Source: Rhodococcus sp. OK519
Lineage (GTDB): Bacteria > Actinomycetota > Actinomycetes > Mycobacteriales > Mycobacteriaceae
Assembly (NCBI RefSeq): GCF_003051005.1
Contig: NZ_QAOW01000005.1
Location: 62,001-126,000 of the forward strand
Reading direction: 5' to 3'
DNA: 64,000 nt
The position numbers and the translations under genes were made by a program. Shown piece by piece: positions 49,429 to 54,947 of the stretch; position 1 is the first letter of the stretch, and every line of letters starts with the position of its first letter. The notes beneath the pieces were generated by a model that did not search any database, was not told the origin of the DNA, and saw nothing but the letters and a program-made list of their open reading frames with translations.

Positions 49429-50913
49429 GTGCACGACACCCTCTCCACCCCGGCCGACACCACGTCCGTCCGCGCCGCGCTGCGTTCTCCCCGCCGACTG
49501 ACGACCGAGGCCCTCGCCGGTCTCGTCACCGCACTCGCGCTCATTCCCGAGGTGATCTCGTTCGCGGTCATCGCGGGCGTCGATCCCAAAGTGGCGCTGT
49601 ATACCTCGTGCATCATGGCGATGACGATCGCGTTCGTCGGCGGCCGTCCGGCGATGGTGTCGGCGGCGGCGGGAGCAACTGCCCTGGTGATCGCGCCACT
49701 CGTTGCATCGCACGGCATCGACTACCTGATCGCCGCGGTGTGGCTGGCCGGTGCGCTGCAGATCCTCTTCGCGGTCGGGGGCCTGGCTCGGCTCGTCCGG
49801 TTCATTCCGCGGTCGGTCATGATCGGGTTCGTCAATGCCCTCGCGATCCTCATCTTCAGTGCCCAGATGCGGCACCTGTTCGACGTCCCGTGGCTTGTGT
49901 ACCCGCTGGTCGTGGCCGGTCTCGCGATGATCGTGGTCGTGCCCAAGCTGACGAAGGCAGTCCCCGCGCCGCTGATCGCGATCGTCGTCCTGACCGGCGT
50001 GGTCGCGCTGTTCGGGCTCGACGTTCCCGACGTCGCCGACCAGGGTGAGCTGCCGTCCGGTCTGCCGACATGGATGATCCCGGACGTCCCGCTCACGTGG
50101 GAGACGCTGACGATCGTCGCGCCGTTCGCGCTGGGCCTGGCACTGGTGGGGCTTCTCGAATCGCTGCTCACCGCAAAGCTCGTCGACGACATCACCGACA
50201 CCCCGTCCGACAAGACCCGCGAGTCCTGGGGTCAGGGCGTCGCGAACATGGCGGGCGCGGCGTTCGGCGGTATGGGTGGTTGCGCGATGATCGGCCAGAC
50301 CATGATCAACGTGAAGGAGGGGCGGGCCCGCACCCGGGTCTCGACGTTCCTCGCCGGCGCGTTCCTGCTGGTGCTGTGTGTGACGGTCGGCGACGTCGTC
50401 GGCTCCATCCCGATGGCCGCGCTGGTCGCGGTGATGCTGGTGATCGCGGTGACGACCTTCGACTGGCGCAGTATCGCGCCCCGCACCCTGCGGCTGATGC
50501 CGCGCAGCGAAACCCTCGTCATGGTGGTCACGGTCGTCGGCACCCTCGCCACCCACAACCTGGCCGTCGGCGTCATCGGTGGTGTGCTGACCGCGATGAT
50601 CGCCTTCGCGCGGCGCGTGGCCCACCTGGCCGGGGTCGACATCGTCGACGAGGCCGGCGAGCGGATCTACCGGGTGTCCGGCCAGCTGTTCTGGGCGTCG
50701 AGCAACGACCTGGTGCACCGGTTCGACTACAGCGACGATCCGGACTCGGTGGTGATCGATCTGTCCGGCGCCGACGTGTGGGACGCGTCCACCGTCGCGA
50801 CCCTCGACGCAGTGCAGGGCAAGTACGCGGCCCGCGGAAAGCGTGTGCGCATCGTCGGCCTCGACGGTGCGAGTCTGGCTCGGATCGAGAAGCTGTCGGG
50901 CCGACTCGGCTGA
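49429..50913 (+). CDS. SulP-family anion transporter with STAS domain, 494 aa
   Basis: A second SulP protein, with about eleven helices (ALIPEVISFAVIAGVDPKVALY, GGRPAMVSAAAGATALVIAPLV) and a short STAS domain at the end (VVIDLSGADVWDASTVATLDAV). The AVSAAAG and GGMGGCAMIGQTMIN blocks place it in the BicA/DauA-like branch moving sulfate, bicarbonate or dicarboxylates. The GTG at 49429 has no clear SD. It has only about 20% identity-level resemblance to the 38035 copy by eye, so it is not a recent duplicate. Confidence 0.9.
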   Translation: MHDTLSTPADTTSVRAALRSPRRLTTEALAGLVTALALIPEVISFAVIAGVDPKVALYTSCIMAMTIAFVGGRPAMVSAAAGATALVIAPLVASHGIDYLIAAVWLAGALQILFAVGGLARLVRFIPRSVMIGFVNALAILIFSAQMRHLFDVPWLVYPLVVAGLAMIVVVPKLTKAVPAPLIAIVVLTGVVALFGLDVPDVADQGELPSGLPTWMIPDVPLTWETLTIVAPFALGLALVGLLESLLTAKLVDDITDTPSDKTRESWGQGVANMAGAAFGGMGGCAMIGQTMINVKEGRARTRVSTFLAGAFLLVLCVTVGDVVGSIPMAALVAVMLVIAVTTFDWRSIAPRTLRLMPRSETLVMVVTVVGTLATHNLAVGVIGGVLTAMIAFARRVAHLAGVDIVDEAGERIYRVSGQLFWASSNDLVHRFDYSDDPDSVVIDLSGADVWDASTVATLDAVQGKYAARGKRVRIVGLDGASLARIEKLSGRLG

Positions 50914-51062
50914 GCGACACCGACCGCTCGTCTCACAGATGTCGCCGTTCGTCGCCGTGCGTATACGTTCGATTTGAACTCGTCGCGGGCATCGCGTTAG
51001 CCTCCAAGCATTGGTGTGTCCGATGTCGGACCGTCACACGAACTCGTCCGGGAAGGTCTCCG

Positions 51063-51131
51063 ATGCGCGGCCCTGCAGCAACCGTCGCCACCACGCTCAT
51101 GCGTGGTTGTTGTTGCATGCGTCAGCGCTGA
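51063..51131 (+). CDS. leader peptide with three consecutive Cys codons, 22 aa
   Basis: The ATG at 51063 follows SD GGAAGG (51051-51056) at a 6-base spacing and opens 22 codons to a TGA at 51129. Codons 16-18 are TGT TGT TGC (Cys-Cys-Cys, 51108-51116), and the C-terminus reads MRGCCCMRQR. Short poly-Cys ORFs in front of sulfur genes act as cysteine-responsive attenuators in mycobacteria. The stem ACCACGC/GCGTGGT (51090-51096 and 51101-51107) lies just before the Cys codons. The remainder of 50914-51259 carries no other gene. Confidence 0.65.
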   Translation: MRGPAATVATTLMRGCCCMRQR

Positions 51132-51192
51132 GACGAGACATCCTGCGCGACGGCACATTCCGTACCGTCCCGCCTCCCCGCGCATTGTCCCT

Positions 51193-51244
51193 CCCAACGG
51201 GCACCCACTCGTCGCAGCGCTAGTCCATCGCAGGTGCCCGTGGG
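51193..51244 (+). promoter_or_regulatory. SD-proximal hairpin of the dioxygenase-met operon
   Basis: ACGGGCACC (51197-51205) pairs exactly with GGTGCCCGT (51233-51241), and CCC (51193-51195) with GGG (51242-51244) across a bulge. The 3' arm runs into the SD GGGGAAAGG (51242-51250) of the gene at 51260. It could hide that SD or terminate transcription, depending on translation of the leader ORF. Confidence 0.6.
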
Positions 51245-51259
51245 GAAAGGACCCGTAGC

Positions 51260-52273
51260 ATGACCGCACAGACTCTCCCGATCATCGATCTGGAGAACCT
51301 CGACGTCGACGCCCTCCGCCAGGTCACGCACGAGATCGGCTTCTTCTACCTGACCGGTCACGGCATCGACCAGCAGCTCACCGACGAGCTGATCGCCGCG
51401 GCGCGGACGTTCTTCGCGCTGCCCGAGGCCGCCAAGCTCGAGATCGAGAACGGCAACTCGCCGCACTTTCGGGGCTACACCCGCGTCGGCGGCGAGCGCA
51501 CCCAGGGCTACATCGACTGGCGGGAGCAGCTCGACATCGGACCCGAGCGCGACGCCGTCGACCCGATCGACCCGGCCCGCCCGTGGGACGTGCTGCACGG
51601 CCCCAACCTCTGGCCCACCGCCGTCCCCGGTCTGCGCGACCTCGCGCTCGGGTGGTCGAGCCAGGCGCAGGATGCCGGGCTGCGACTGATCCGTGGGTGG
51701 GCGCAGTCGCTCGGTGCGCCGGCCGACTTCTTCGACACCGCCTTCGCCGACCCGGACCCACTGCTCAAGATCGCGCGCTACCCGGGCCACGACGGCTCCG
51801 TCACCGGCCAGGGCGTGGGCAGCCACAAGGATGTCGGTGCGTTGACACTGCTCTACCCGGAGCCCGGCAGCACCGGTTTCCAGGTGGAAACAGGCAGCCG
51901 GGGAGGCGGGACTGCCTGGCTGGACGTAGCCCCGATCCGTGGCCATCTGCTGGTCAACATCGGTGAGCTGCTCGAGGTCGCCACCGGCGGATATCTCAAG
52001 GCCACCGTGCACCGCGTGCTGCCGCCGCCGGCCGGCAAGGACAGGGTCTCGTTGCCGTTCTTCCTCAACCCCGGCTACGACCGGGCGTTGCCGACCATCC
52101 CGCTGTCACCCGAGCTCGCGGCCGAGGCGGCCGGGGTCGGACCGGACCAGCACGGCGGCACCCTGCACGCCCGCTACGGCCTCAACGCCCTCAAGTCGCG
52201 CCTGCGCGCGCACCCCAACGTCACCGAGCGGTACCACCGCGATCTGCTCGACCTGCCCGCCCTGCGCGGCTGA
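51260..52273 (+). CDS. isopenicillin-N-synthase-family Fe(II)/2-oxoglutarate oxygenase, 337 aa
   Basis: The DIOX_N region (PIIDLENLDVDAL, IGFFYLTGHGI) and the 2OG-FeII domain are clear. The facial triad is His and Asp in GSHKDVGALTLL and the distal His in KATVHRVLPP; the 2OG-binding Arg is in DRVSLPFFLNP. The ATG at 51260 has the SD GGGGAAAGG. It starts the operon with metQ, metN and metI (30, 0 and overlapping). In this setting it may release sulfur or modify a sulfur amino acid, but the substrate is unknown. Confidence 0.85.
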   Translation: MTAQTLPIIDLENLDVDALRQVTHEIGFFYLTGHGIDQQLTDELIAAARTFFALPEAAKLEIENGNSPHFRGYTRVGGERTQGYIDWREQLDIGPERDAVDPIDPARPWDVLHGPNLWPTAVPGLRDLALGWSSQAQDAGLRLIRGWAQSLGAPADFFDTAFADPDPLLKIARYPGHDGSVTGQGVGSHKDVGALTLLYPEPGSTGFQVETGSRGGGTAWLDVAPIRGHLLVNIGELLEVATGGYLKATVHRVLPPPAGKDRVSLPFFLNPGYDRALPTIPLSPELAAEAAGVGPDQHGGTLHARYGLNALKSRLRAHPNVTERYHRDLLDLPALRG

Positions 52274-52303: not shown

Positions 52304-53137
52304 ATGTTCTTGCGCCGCACCGCTGTTCTCTCCGCTGCTGCCCTGCTCACCGCGGGCCTGGCCGCCTGCTCGTCGGGTAATGACGGGGAGACCCTGGTGA
52401 TCTCCGCATCCAGCACCCCGCACGTCGAGATCCTCGAGCACATCGCCGACTCCGGCGTCCTCGGTGACGTCAAGCTCGACATCAAGCCGGTCACCGGCGA
52501 GATCGACCCCAACGAGCTGCTCGTTGCCGGCGACGTGCAGGCCAACTACTTCCAGCACGCCCCGTACCTCGCGGACTGGCAGAAGCAGAAGGGCGTGAGC
52601 GACCTCGTCTCCGTCGCCGGCGTGCATCTCGAGCCGATGGGCCTGTACTCGGAGAAGATCACCGCCGTCGATCAACTCACCGACGGCTCGACCATCGCGC
52701 TGCCCAAGGACACCACCAACTTCGCGCGTGGCCTCTACCTGCTCGAGTCGGCCGGACTGATCCAGATGGACAAGCCGTTCGCCGACGCCGACCTGTCGGT
52801 CGTCACGCAGAAGAACATCAAGGTCAACCCCAAGAACCTGAAGTTCGTCGAGATCGAGCGCTCGCAGCTCGCCCGCAACCTCGGCGACCCGCAGATCACC
52901 GCCGCGGTCATCAACTCCAACTACGCGATCGAGGCCGGGCTGGTGCCGTCCGAGGACGCGCTGCTGTCGGAGAAGGTCGAGAACAACCCGTTCGCGAACC
53001 TGCTCGTGGTCCGCACCGCCGACGAGAACGATCCCGGCGTGAAGGCGCTCGCGGAGGCGCTCGAGTCCCCGGCAACCGCAACCTGGATCCAGGAGAACTA
53101 CTCCGGTTCCGTCGTCCCGGTCCACCCGGCCGGCTGA
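52304..53137 (+). CDS. metQ: MetQ/NlpA-family binding lipoprotein, 277 aa
   Basis: A signal sequence with lipobox LAAC (Cys22) leads to the NlpA domain, which binds methionine or a related amino acid: HVEILEHIADSGVL, GDVQANYFQHAPYLADW, VAGVHLEPMGLYSEK and DTTNFARGLYLLE match the family blocks. The ATG at 52304 follows AAAGG. It is followed directly by the ATPase gene. The ligand could be methionine or another sulfur compound given the Cys-rich leader upstream. Confidence 0.9.
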   Translation: MFLRRTAVLSAAALLTAGLAACSSGNDGETLVISASSTPHVEILEHIADSGVLGDVKLDIKPVTGEIDPNELLVAGDVQANYFQHAPYLADWQKQKGVSDLVSVAGVHLEPMGLYSEKITAVDQLTDGSTIALPKDTTNFARGLYLLESAGLIQMDKPFADADLSVVTQKNIKVNPKNLKFVEIERSQLARNLGDPQITAAVINSNYAIEAGLVPSEDALLSEKVENNPFANLLVVRTADENDPGVKALAEALESPATATWIQENYSGSVVPVHPAG

Positions 53138-54171
53138 TGATCACCGTCGAGAATCTGGTCAAGACCTTCCCCGCCGCCGGCGGAGCGGGGGAGGTCGCGG
53201 CCCTGCGCGGCGTCGATCTGCAGATCGCCGAGGGCGAGATCTTCGGCATCGTCGGGCCGTCGGGCGCGGGCAAGTCGACGCTGCTGCGGTGCCTGAACCT
53301 GCTCGAGCAGCCCACCAGTGGACGCATCGTCCTCCGCGGCGACGACCTGTCGCAGCTGTCGGGTGCCGGACTGCGTCAGGCGCGGCGCCGCATCGGCACC
53401 GTGTTCCAGCAGTTCAACCTGCTGCACTCGCGAACCGTCCGGGCCAACGTCGAGTTCCCGCTCGAGCTTGCCGGGATGAACCGTAAGCAGCGCCGCGCCC
53501 GTGCCGACGAGCTGATCGAGCTCGTCGGACTCGGCGGCAAGGAAAAGGCGTTCCCGTCGCAGCTGTCCGGCGGGCAGCAGCAGCGTGTCGGCATCGCCCG
53601 CGCGCTGGCATCCGATCCGGACGTGCTGCTGTGTGACGAGGCGACCAGCGCCCTCGACCCCGACACCACCGGACAGGTGCTCGACCTGCTGGCCGAGCTC
53701 AACCGCTCGATCGGCGTCACCGTCATTCTCATCACCCACGAGCTGGGTGTGCTGCGCCGCATCTGCACGTCCGCGGCTCGGCTCGAGGACGGCCGCATCG
53801 CCGAGACCGGACGGATCCTCGATCTGGTCGGCACGCCCGACTCGGTGCTGGGATCGGCGATCGTCCCCGTCGGAGAAGATCCGTCCGCGGGGGACGGCGC
53901 CGACACCGCGCTCGTCACCACGATCGGCGACGAGGCGCACGGGCCGTGGCTCGCGCAGCTCGTCCGCAAGCTCGACGTCGACATCTCGGTGGTCGGCGGC
54001 AGCGTCGAACAGGTCGCCGGCGTCACCGTCGGACGGCTGCGGTTGCGGTTCGGGCCCGACGTGAACCGGGCCGACGTCGACGCCTTCGTGGCCGCCCAGC
54101 CCGGCACCACCCTCGCCTGGGGCGCGGGGCAGGAAACGACCGGCGCATTGGCGCAAGGGGTAACCGCATGA
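53137..54171 (+). CDS. metN: methionine-type ABC importer ATPase MetN, 344 aa
   Basis: Walker A IVGPSGAGKSTLLRCLN, the Q-loop FQQFNLL, signature LSGGQQQRVGIARAL, Walker B VLLCDEATSALDPD and the switch His in ILITHELGVL are all present. A C-terminal NIL regulatory domain (about 265-344) is as in MetN. The start overlaps the metQ stop by one base (TGATGA). It pairs with metI. Confidence 0.93.
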   Translation: MITVENLVKTFPAAGGAGEVAALRGVDLQIAEGEIFGIVGPSGAGKSTLLRCLNLLEQPTSGRIVLRGDDLSQLSGAGLRQARRRIGTVFQQFNLLHSRTVRANVEFPLELAGMNRKQRRARADELIELVGLGGKEKAFPSQLSGGQQQRVGIARALASDPDVLLCDEATSALDPDTTGQVLDLLAELNRSIGVTVILITHELGVLRRICTSAARLEDGRIAETGRILDLVGTPDSVLGSAIVPVGEDPSAGDGADTALVTTIGDEAHGPWLAQLVRKLDVDISVVGGSVEQVAGVTVGRLRLRFGPDVNRADVDAFVAAQPGTTLAWGAGQETTGALAQGVTA

Positions 54172-54836
54172 ACAAGCTGTCCTGGCAGGACTCCCTTCCC
54201 GAGGTGTGGGAGGCGACGCGGGAGACCCTCTACATGGTGGGAATCTCCTTCGTGCTCACCGTGGTCGGCGGTGTGCTGCTCGGCGTGATCCTGCACGTGA
54301 CCTCGCCGAGCGGGTTGTGGCCGCAGCGCGCCGTCAACGCGGTGCTCGGTGCGATCGTCAACGTGTTCCGTTCGCTGCCGTTCCTCATCCTGATGATTGC
54401 GCTGATCAGCACGACCCGGCTGATCGTCGGCACCGCGATCGGCCCGACGGCCGCGATCGTCCCGCTGACGATCGGCGCGATCCCGTTCTACGCGCGCGTC
54501 GTCGAGTCGGCGCTGCGCGAGGTGCCCGTCGGCCGCGTCGAGGCCGCCCAGGCGATGGGCGCGAGCAACGGTCAGATCGTGCGGAAAGTGCTCCTGCCGG
54601 AGTCGGTTTCGGCTCTGATCGCCGGCGCGACACTGACCGTGGTATTGCTCGTGGGCTACTCCGCGATGGCCGGTGTCATCGGTGGCGGCGGGCTGGGTGA
54701 CTTCGCGATCGTCTACGGCTACCAGCGGTTCAACACGCCGGTGCTGTTGGTCGCGGTCGTCGTGCTGATCGTTCTCGTGCAGATCCTGCAGTCCATCGGC
54801 GACGGCGTCGTCCGGGCGTTGAAGCACCGCAAGTAG
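54168..54836 (+). CDS. metI: methionine-type ABC importer permease MetI, 222 aa
   Basis: A short permease with five membrane segments and the EAA loop EAAQAMGASNGQIVRKVLLPES, diagnostic of the MetI type. Family blocks include FRSLPFLILMIALI and VGYSAMAGVIGGGGLGDFAIVYGY. The ATG at 54168 overlaps the metN stop. It ends the operon before a strong hairpin. Confidence 0.93.
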   Translation: MNKLSWQDSLPEVWEATRETLYMVGISFVLTVVGGVLLGVILHVTSPSGLWPQRAVNAVLGAIVNVFRSLPFLILMIALISTTRLIVGTAIGPTAAIVPLTIGAIPFYARVVESALREVPVGRVEAAQAMGASNGQIVRKVLLPESVSALIAGATLTVVLLVGYSAMAGVIGGGGLGDFAIVYGYQRFNTPVLLVAVVVLIVLVQILQSIGDGVVRALKHRK

Positions 54837-54847
54837 AACCACGGACT

Positions 54848-54898
54848 CCGATCCTGAAGGATTCCTCTCGCCAGGCGACAGGAATCCTTCAGGATCGG
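54848..54898 (+). terminator. terminator of the met operon
   Basis: CCGATCCTGAAGGATTCCT (54848-54866) and its exact complement at 54880-54898 form a 19-bp stem, with an inner CGCC/GGCG extension. It lies 11 bases after metI. No T-tract follows. Confidence 0.85.
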
Positions 54899-54917: not shown

Positions 54918-54947
54918 TCGGCATCGGCATCGGCATCGGCATCGGCG
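54918..54947. repeat. tandem GGCATC hexamers
   Basis: The hexamer GGCATC is repeated four times in a row in the leader of the following gene. In one frame it would encode alternating Arg-His, but the SD-supported start lies further on. Confidence 0.6.

Follow-up and report, generated by a model that had tools for sequence, protein, structure and literature searches.

A putative ribosome-read cysteine gauge in the leader of a dioxygenase–metQNI operon of Prescottella

A tiny gene rich in cysteine codons, lying directly 5′ of an uptake operon in a Prescottella genome (Rhodococcus equi group), is very probably a cysteine gauge that is read by the ribosome and that switches the operon on at cysteine shortage. 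The gene, here called the leader ORF or uORF, precedes a dioxygenase gene and the three genes of a MetQNI-type importer in the window, the whole 64,000-nt stretch of DNA that was analysed. We propose that the leader controls translation of this operon, a reading to which we assign a probability of about three in four. That the uORF senses cysteine appears highly probable from its codons and their conservation; that a conserved loop pairing then releases the SD of the first gene is held more tentatively, at a little under even odds. What is new is the operon under control, the poly-Cys uORF being a type of switch already known from mycobacteria.

With this leader, Prescottella, Rhodococcus and Tomitella, together with an operon that is not usually counted as cysteine metabolism, would join ribosome-read cysteine control. 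The leader also offers a handle on the substrates of the dioxygenase, as sulfur acquisition is the probable role of an enzyme that cysteine shortage induces, and the two unrelated leader sequences that stand before one operon amount to a natural experiment on the parts that the switch needs.

The leader ORF and its association with metQNI

The features of the region are collected in Table 1. The initial annotation had described a 22-codon ORF with its own SD, Cys-Cys-Cys codons at 51108–51116 and an end 128 bases before the first structural gene, and these coordinates hold, with 128 nt between the uORF stop and the dioxygenase ATG (51260). A short ORF with CCC arose in 1 of 1,000 dinucleotide shuffles of 50914–51259, which, with its presence across relatives, argues against a chance origin. 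A consensus promoter scan of the leader region found no promoter; the candidate promoter in Table 1 lies about 60 nt upstream of the uORF, with TTGA kept in 10 and TAGCCT in 11 of 13 aligned rows, and we infer a transcript start near 51010 and a 5′ UTR of about 50 nt. Just upstream of the putative −35 element, a palindrome, CGTATACG (50960–50967), is kept in 10 of 13 aligned rows (absent from L016, L019 and L020) and may serve as a transcription-factor operator. The leader directly follows a gene for a SulP-family anion transporter with a STAS domain (49429–50913).

Table 1. Coordinates of the leader elements and operon genes (positions in the window)
Feature	Position	Strand	Basis or remark
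Candidate promoter: TTGAAC (50974–50979), 18 nt, TAGCCT (50998–51003)	50974–51003	+	Read from sequence
SD-like GGGAAGG of uORF	51050–51056	+	6 nt before ATG; GGAAGG in 15 of 16 leaders, GGAAAGG in G011
Leader ORF (uORF), 22 codons, MRGPAATVATTLMRGCCCMRQR	51063–51131	+	ATG 51063, TGA 51129–51131
Hairpin P1 (51074–51082 with 51109–51117; 51090–51096 with 51101–51107)	51074–51117	+	3′ arm includes Cys codons
Cys-Cys-Cys codons, TGT TGT TGC	51108–51116	+	
5′ arm of proposed antisequestor, GCGCTGAGACGAG, across uORF stop	51125–51137	+	51132–51138 identical in 16 of 16 leaders
Hairpin P2	51145–51173	+	Compensatory changes in central pairs
Proposed sequestor hairpin P3 (51187–51205 with 51233–51252), holds SD of first gene	51187–51252	+	Minimum-energy fold
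3′ arm of proposed antisequestor, CTCGTCGCAGCGC, in apical loop of P3	51208–51220	+	
SD region of dioxygenase gene, GGGGAAAGG	51242–51250	+	
2OG-Fe(II)-type dioxygenase gene, 337 aa, DIOX_N and 2OG-FeII_Oxy	51260–52273	+	Domain matches
metQ-like lipoprotein gene (NlpA/Lipoprotein_9)	52304–53137	+	Domain matches
metN-like ATPase gene with NIL domain	53137–54171	+	Domain matches
metI-like permease gene	54168–54836	+	

DNA comparison recovered the leader in all 14 genomes of the genus that were compared, and a covariance model search of 401 genomes of the family added two more, those of Rhodococcus tukisamuensis (G098) and Tomitella biformata (G078), giving a set of 16 window-type leaders. Four weak matches of the model (G045, G139, G144 and G185; E 5e-4 to 8e-4) had no operon gene at E 1e-15 in any flank and were therefore taken as chance. 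The frame is intact in all 16 leaders, over a length of 22–24 codons with 2–4 Cys codons, two adjacent ones always being kept (CCC in 11, CC in one, CCRC in four). Between the last Cys codon and the stop lie four codons in 15 leaders and five in one, and the distance from the stop to the gene start runs from 124 to 128 nt in steps that are not of three. Of 23 columns each, 12 vary at codon position 1, 10 at position 2 and 11 at position 3, third positions being no more variable than the others; these counts point to a peptide without protein-level constraint beyond its Cys codons, a pattern to be anticipated where nothing but those codons and the RNA is important.

For the wider survey, a uORF was defined as an ATG or GTG ORF of 8–45 codons, at most 260 nt upstream of the first gene, whose last 12 residues include CC, and metQNI was called adjacent where a neighbouring metQ of >60% identity was present (G047 and G230 were judged on 1.5 kb downstream). 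The sample from the 401 family genomes comprised 36 with a dioxygenase match of at least 69% identity and a frameshifted copy in G009, making 37, plus G004 and G011, in which leader and metQNI are kept and the dioxygenase is absent. A Cys-run uORF precedes 29 of the 29 orthologous metQNI operons examined and is found at 0 of 10 dioxygenase orthologues that lack an adjacent metQNI; under a looser uORF rule one of these ten, in G184, has a CC ORF, VPICCPRFPARTGVCTRWT, which we judged to be chance. The leaders fall into two groups with unrelated peptides, those of a second Rhodococcus group (MGNTHAQTVSTRARSAVAPACCRCR, MFGNACTQVVSTRLQGVVAPACCCR, MVGTSHAQVVIARVVGTHAPACCCR and MFGMNRAQDMHTRAGVAATSCCCACR) having only the C-terminal Cys run in common with the window peptide. 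The refutation test named in the initial annotation that asks whether relatives conserve the Cys codons thus came out in its favour, the Cys run being kept in both groups.

Sampling by MetQ identified 24 matching genomes among 151 of the family; the 20 at 70% identity or more all belong to the set of 29, and the remaining four (41–51% identity: three at 51%, one at 41%) had no short ORF with a Cys run close to the start. In named records (45 loci, mostly from the same genomes), the uORF occurs at 16 of 16 loci with a close metQNI and at 0 of 5 close orthologues without metQNI. Among the 24 distant loci of the 45 (48–57% identity), three have a poly-Cys uORF of their own and no close metQNI: L133, L139 and L142, which come from metagenome assemblies under the labels Actinomycetales, Microbacterium and Actinomycetota. 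These uORFs are 11 codons long (example peptide MNALFCCCCCR; L139:4381–4433, L142:4381–4433, L133:4375–4427), each with an inverted repeat, CTAGTTC/GAACTAG, from the uORF stop, and the gene that comes next downstream in L139 and L142 is on the other strand.

At L134, a TTG-start ORF with CC, perhaps due to chance, lies 255 nt upstream. At five Corynebacterium loci, a metQ-like gene of 44–46% identity lies close to the dioxygenase gene, which no Cys-run uORF precedes. None of 20 further dioxygenase homologues of the family (50–57% identity, chosen from a longer list) has a uORF ending in a Cys run, G036 alone among them having an ORF with CC, away from the ORF end, and the homologues in G252 and G100 have no ORF with CC. 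Mostly absent from distant homologues, the Cys uORF thus does not accompany the dioxygenase family in general. In G111 and G123 the dioxygenase gene follows what is, by eye, apparently the same SulP-type gene, with no leader and no metQNI.

RNA structure, proposed switch and alternatives

P1 pairs the Cys codons with the start part of the uORF, its three helices being paired in 88.8–90.6% of cells across the 16 leaders with three pairs changed on both sides. In P2, central pairs change from A-U to G-C in two leaders and from C-G to U-A in one; P3 is paired in 88.3% of cells. The SD-proximal stem of the initial annotation is present (51193–51205 with 51233–51245, with one A·G mismatch at 51196/51242), longer in the minimum-energy fold than described, and conserved. 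Absent from that annotation is a conserved complementarity between the stop region of the uORF and the apical loop of P3, which comprises 12 pairs round one mismatch.

The fold energy gives z scores against shuffles of −2.30 for 51063–51268 and −1.63 for 51138–51268. For P1, P2, P3 and the loop pairing taken together, the share of paired cells is 89.0%, where shuffles give 87.4 ± 0.3 (reached by 0 of 500); eight pairs are changed on both sides against 5.0 ± 1.1 (6 of 500), and further pair types number 27 against 24.7 (53 of 500), figures that relatedness among the leaders can inflate. If a position kept in at least 15 of 16 leaders is counted as conserved, the ten better-kept pairs have 8 of their 10 positions in the 27-nt loop of P3 conserved, compared with 1 of 17 others (p 0.00017), a statistic that omits two poorly kept outer pairs; with all twelve pairs the counts are 8 of 12 and 1 of 15 (p 0.0027). 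An equal 11-base complement appeared in 28 of 2,000 mononucleotide shuffles, the length of 11 having been picked after the match was seen. In the alignment, support for the loop pairing comes from conservation, not covariation: varying pairs go to G-U or break, and the two outermost are broken in 9 and 6 of the 14 leaders with letters there. The cores of the loop pairing and of P3, the conserved SD stem, hardly vary at all, so that covariation is lacking where it matters.

Two other pairings were rejected as candidates. One, between the 5′ UTR and the block after the stop (51043–51048 with 51132–51137), is at most a possibility, with 96.9% of cells paired, no excess over shuffles and values of 0.00–0.16 in folding; the other, between the uORF start (51063–51070) and 51178–51185, has 74.2% of cells paired.

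We propose the following switch. The uORF, short and led by an SD, would be carried on a transcript from about 51010. When Cys-tRNA is plentiful, the ribosome would reach the UGA and cover 51125–51137, and with this segment covered the hairpin at 51187–51252 would form and hide the dioxygenase SD. With Cys-tRNA scarce, the ribosome would stall at 51108–51116, melting P1 and freeing 51125–51137, which could then pair with 51208–51220 in the loop of P3, so that the hairpin is hindered or delayed and the SD becomes usable. The operon would be a unit for scavenging at low cysteine, in which an ABC importer of the methionine type is combined with an oxygenase whose probable task is to make an organic sulfur compound usable.

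Folding was pseudoknot-free, with the ribosome modelled by masking the RNA that it covers. When the window leader is folded to 51268, placing the ribosome on the first Cys codon gives the loop pairing at 0.84 and P3 at 0.15, and placing it on the stop codon gives 0.00 and 1.00, P3 standing at 0.98 without a ribosome. When the leader is extended to 51290, P3 prevails during a stall at the first Cys codon (0.87), and a stall at the third Cys codon abolishes the loop pairing. At full length, the loop pairing exceeds 0.5 in just 3 of the 16 leaders; before the second arm of P3 is made, it is at least 0.85 in 12 of 16, with 0.43 in G005, 0.23 in G078 and 0.00 in G001 and G021. With the ribosome at the stop, P3 is weak in G004 (0.12) and G098 (0.33). 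SD accessibility, compared between stalling and termination in 30 leaders, shows a clear effect in the window only (1 of 40 shuffles as high), a less clear one in two leaders (5 of 40 each) and differences of −0.12 to +0.06 in the other 27. As general proof of the switch, folding with stalled and terminating ribosomes fails for most relatives. The attenuation reading of the initial annotation is supported by the conservation of the Cys codons and of the SD stem, with the RNA rearrangement predicted for the window and not for most relatives. The mismatch may reflect a kinetic effect, or a loop pairing and stem that coexist as a pseudoknot beyond the energy models, or another target, such as Rho.

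In the last case, the same cysteine uORF would act on transcription, the stalled ribosome keeping Rho off or preventing pausing and termination in the 128-nt spacer, with the SD hairpin incidental or a pause site. Such an explanation would fit the lack of a predicted SD switch in most relatives, and the available text of Seliverstov et al. 2005 proposes Rho, as a weak prediction, for mycobacterial cys leaders (PMC1262725). We nevertheless consider it unlikely: 43 of 50 spacer positions in P2, the SD hairpin and the loop complement are conserved against 13 of 60 others, so that the conserved blocks are mostly elements that Rho does not need, and no intrinsic terminator was found between the uORF and the gene, the sole terminator-like match being P1, inside the uORF.

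Two further explanations shift the weight from the Cys codons to the RNA or to the peptide. The conserved RNA after the uORF might be a riboswitch-like, metabolite-binding pseudoknot to which the uORF is secondary; P3 and the loop pairing could form an H-type pseudoknot, and the last bases of an invariant GACGAGA block are unexplained by the loop pairing. Rfam 15 covariance models run on 50900–51400 returned no family at E up to 5, however, and the second Rhodococcus group keeps the Cys uORF where this RNA is not recognisable, which makes a riboswitch improbable. Still harder to credit is a uORF that encodes a small protein with its own function, for example in metal or thiol binding: the conserved start, frame and Cys run would be expected of such a protein, but third codon positions show no excess variation, the peptides of the two groups are unrelated outside the Cys run and, among the orthologues examined, the uORF was found only with metQNI. 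We retain translational control by a cysteine-sensing uORF as the preferred reading.

Relation to known cysteine leaders

Attenuators of the trp/his type have regulatory codons in a leader ORF and a downstream region with alternative partners. The window leader would resemble them on both counts, alternative partners being predicted for the window sequence and not for most relatives, and differs in having no U-run terminator before the gene, control of translation initiation being the more probable mode. Nearer in kind are the poly-Cys leaderless sORFs of Mycobacterium smegmatis, which are cysteine-responsive attenuators (Canestrari et al. 2020, as cited in the available portions of PMC9094748, PMC9031893 and PMC13236596). 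As far as those portions describe them, they share with the window leader a short ORF, consecutive Cys codons and a position upstream of sulfur genes, and in them ribosome speed at the Cys codons controls the downstream gene at translation, as we propose here. The window leader differs, within the same limits, in being SD-led to judge by its sequence, with a 5′ UTR of about 50 nt, in its dioxygenase–metQNI target and in its conserved loop complement in the spacer. A leaderless transcript begins at the sORF ATG, and that of the window leader would begin upstream of it. Spacing of the leaderless type, with an ATG 8–9 nt after a −10-like hexamer by eye, is seen in Rhodococcus sp. HNM0563, SMB37, L133, L139 and L142.

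In 2005, candidate leader peptides carrying runs of Cys had already been put forward for the cys operons of Mycobacterium and P. acnes, and for B. longum cbs, and, in the available text, these leaders are like that of the window in their Cys-codon runs near the stop and their lack of an intrinsic terminator (PMC1262725). The same text reports no conserved terminator-capable hairpins and leaves the mechanism open, whereas the window leader has a conserved SD hairpin with a loop complement; its main text nowhere names Rhodococcus (PMC1262725). No title among the matches listed in the literature concerned this leader, which is weak evidence of absence, as subscription papers are sparsely covered.

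The operon and a second poly-Cys uORF

The operon proteins match Lipoprotein_9, ABC_tran, NIL and BPD_transp_1 above the Pfam gathering scores, and MetQ, MetN and MetI are the best NCBIfam models for the importer genes, below their cut-offs; the joint presence of MetQ, MetN with a NIL domain and MetI identifies the importer, by these matches, as of the MetQNI type. The dioxygenase matched no NCBIfam family. It had been called IPNS-like, a description that we revise: IPNS shares its DIOX_N and 2OG-FeII_Oxy domains and matches at E 2.6e-14, compared with 3.9e-56 for the best solved match, 9ovh, and by this comparison the protein is nearer to a 2OG-dependent enzyme of the ethylene/succinate-forming type than to IPNS. 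In an eight-row alignment H189, D191, H251, R262 and S264 are invariant, residues that we take to be the iron and cosubstrate ligands.

In R. qingshengii IGTS8, MetQ and MetN, compared with the window importer by name, are among the proteins whose levels on dibenzothiophene exceed those on sulfate more than fourfold, according to the available part of PMC8557817. From the leader and its associations, we infer that the operon serves the scavenging of sulfur compounds, and an uncharacterised sulfur source can reasonably be supposed to lie behind it. A more far-reaching proposal is that a loop-pairing (pseudoknot) element is a dedicated part of this cysteine attenuator, in which a ribosome stalled at the Cys codons frees the uORF stop region to pair into the loop of the SD hairpin; that the leader governs a hitherto uncharacterised cysteine-supply route, in which MetQNI imports and the 2OG-type dioxygenase converts an organic sulfur compound; and that within Actinomycetota the dioxygenase family was brought under the control of cysteine uORFs on more than one occasion; in this full form we regard it as rather doubtful. 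Just after metI is a perfect 18-base inverted repeat, CGATCCTGAAGGATTCCT / AGGAATCCTTCAGGATCG (54849–54897), perhaps the operon terminator, and a short tandem repeat of GGCATC follows the operon at 54920–54946.

The same genome has three loci with sulfate-assimilation genes. One, a sulfite/nitrite reductase–cysH–cysD–cysN cluster (L161), has a poly-Cys uORF, MARMTDSGVRLVARRHVDLKRVCSCCCQPCGV, at L161:8263–8361 (− strand), which ends 116 or 164 nt before candidate reductase starts. This ORF overlaps a long opposite-strand open frame that belongs to a HemN-like gene; as the recognisable domain of that gene begins >200 nt beyond it, the ORF probably lies between two divergent genes. No poly-Cys uORF was seen at the third locus, L163. 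At L162:5625–5693 (− strand), an intergenic ORF, MLLRPSKSQRRQDNCCSDCGSS, lies near a sulfate-assimilation gene.
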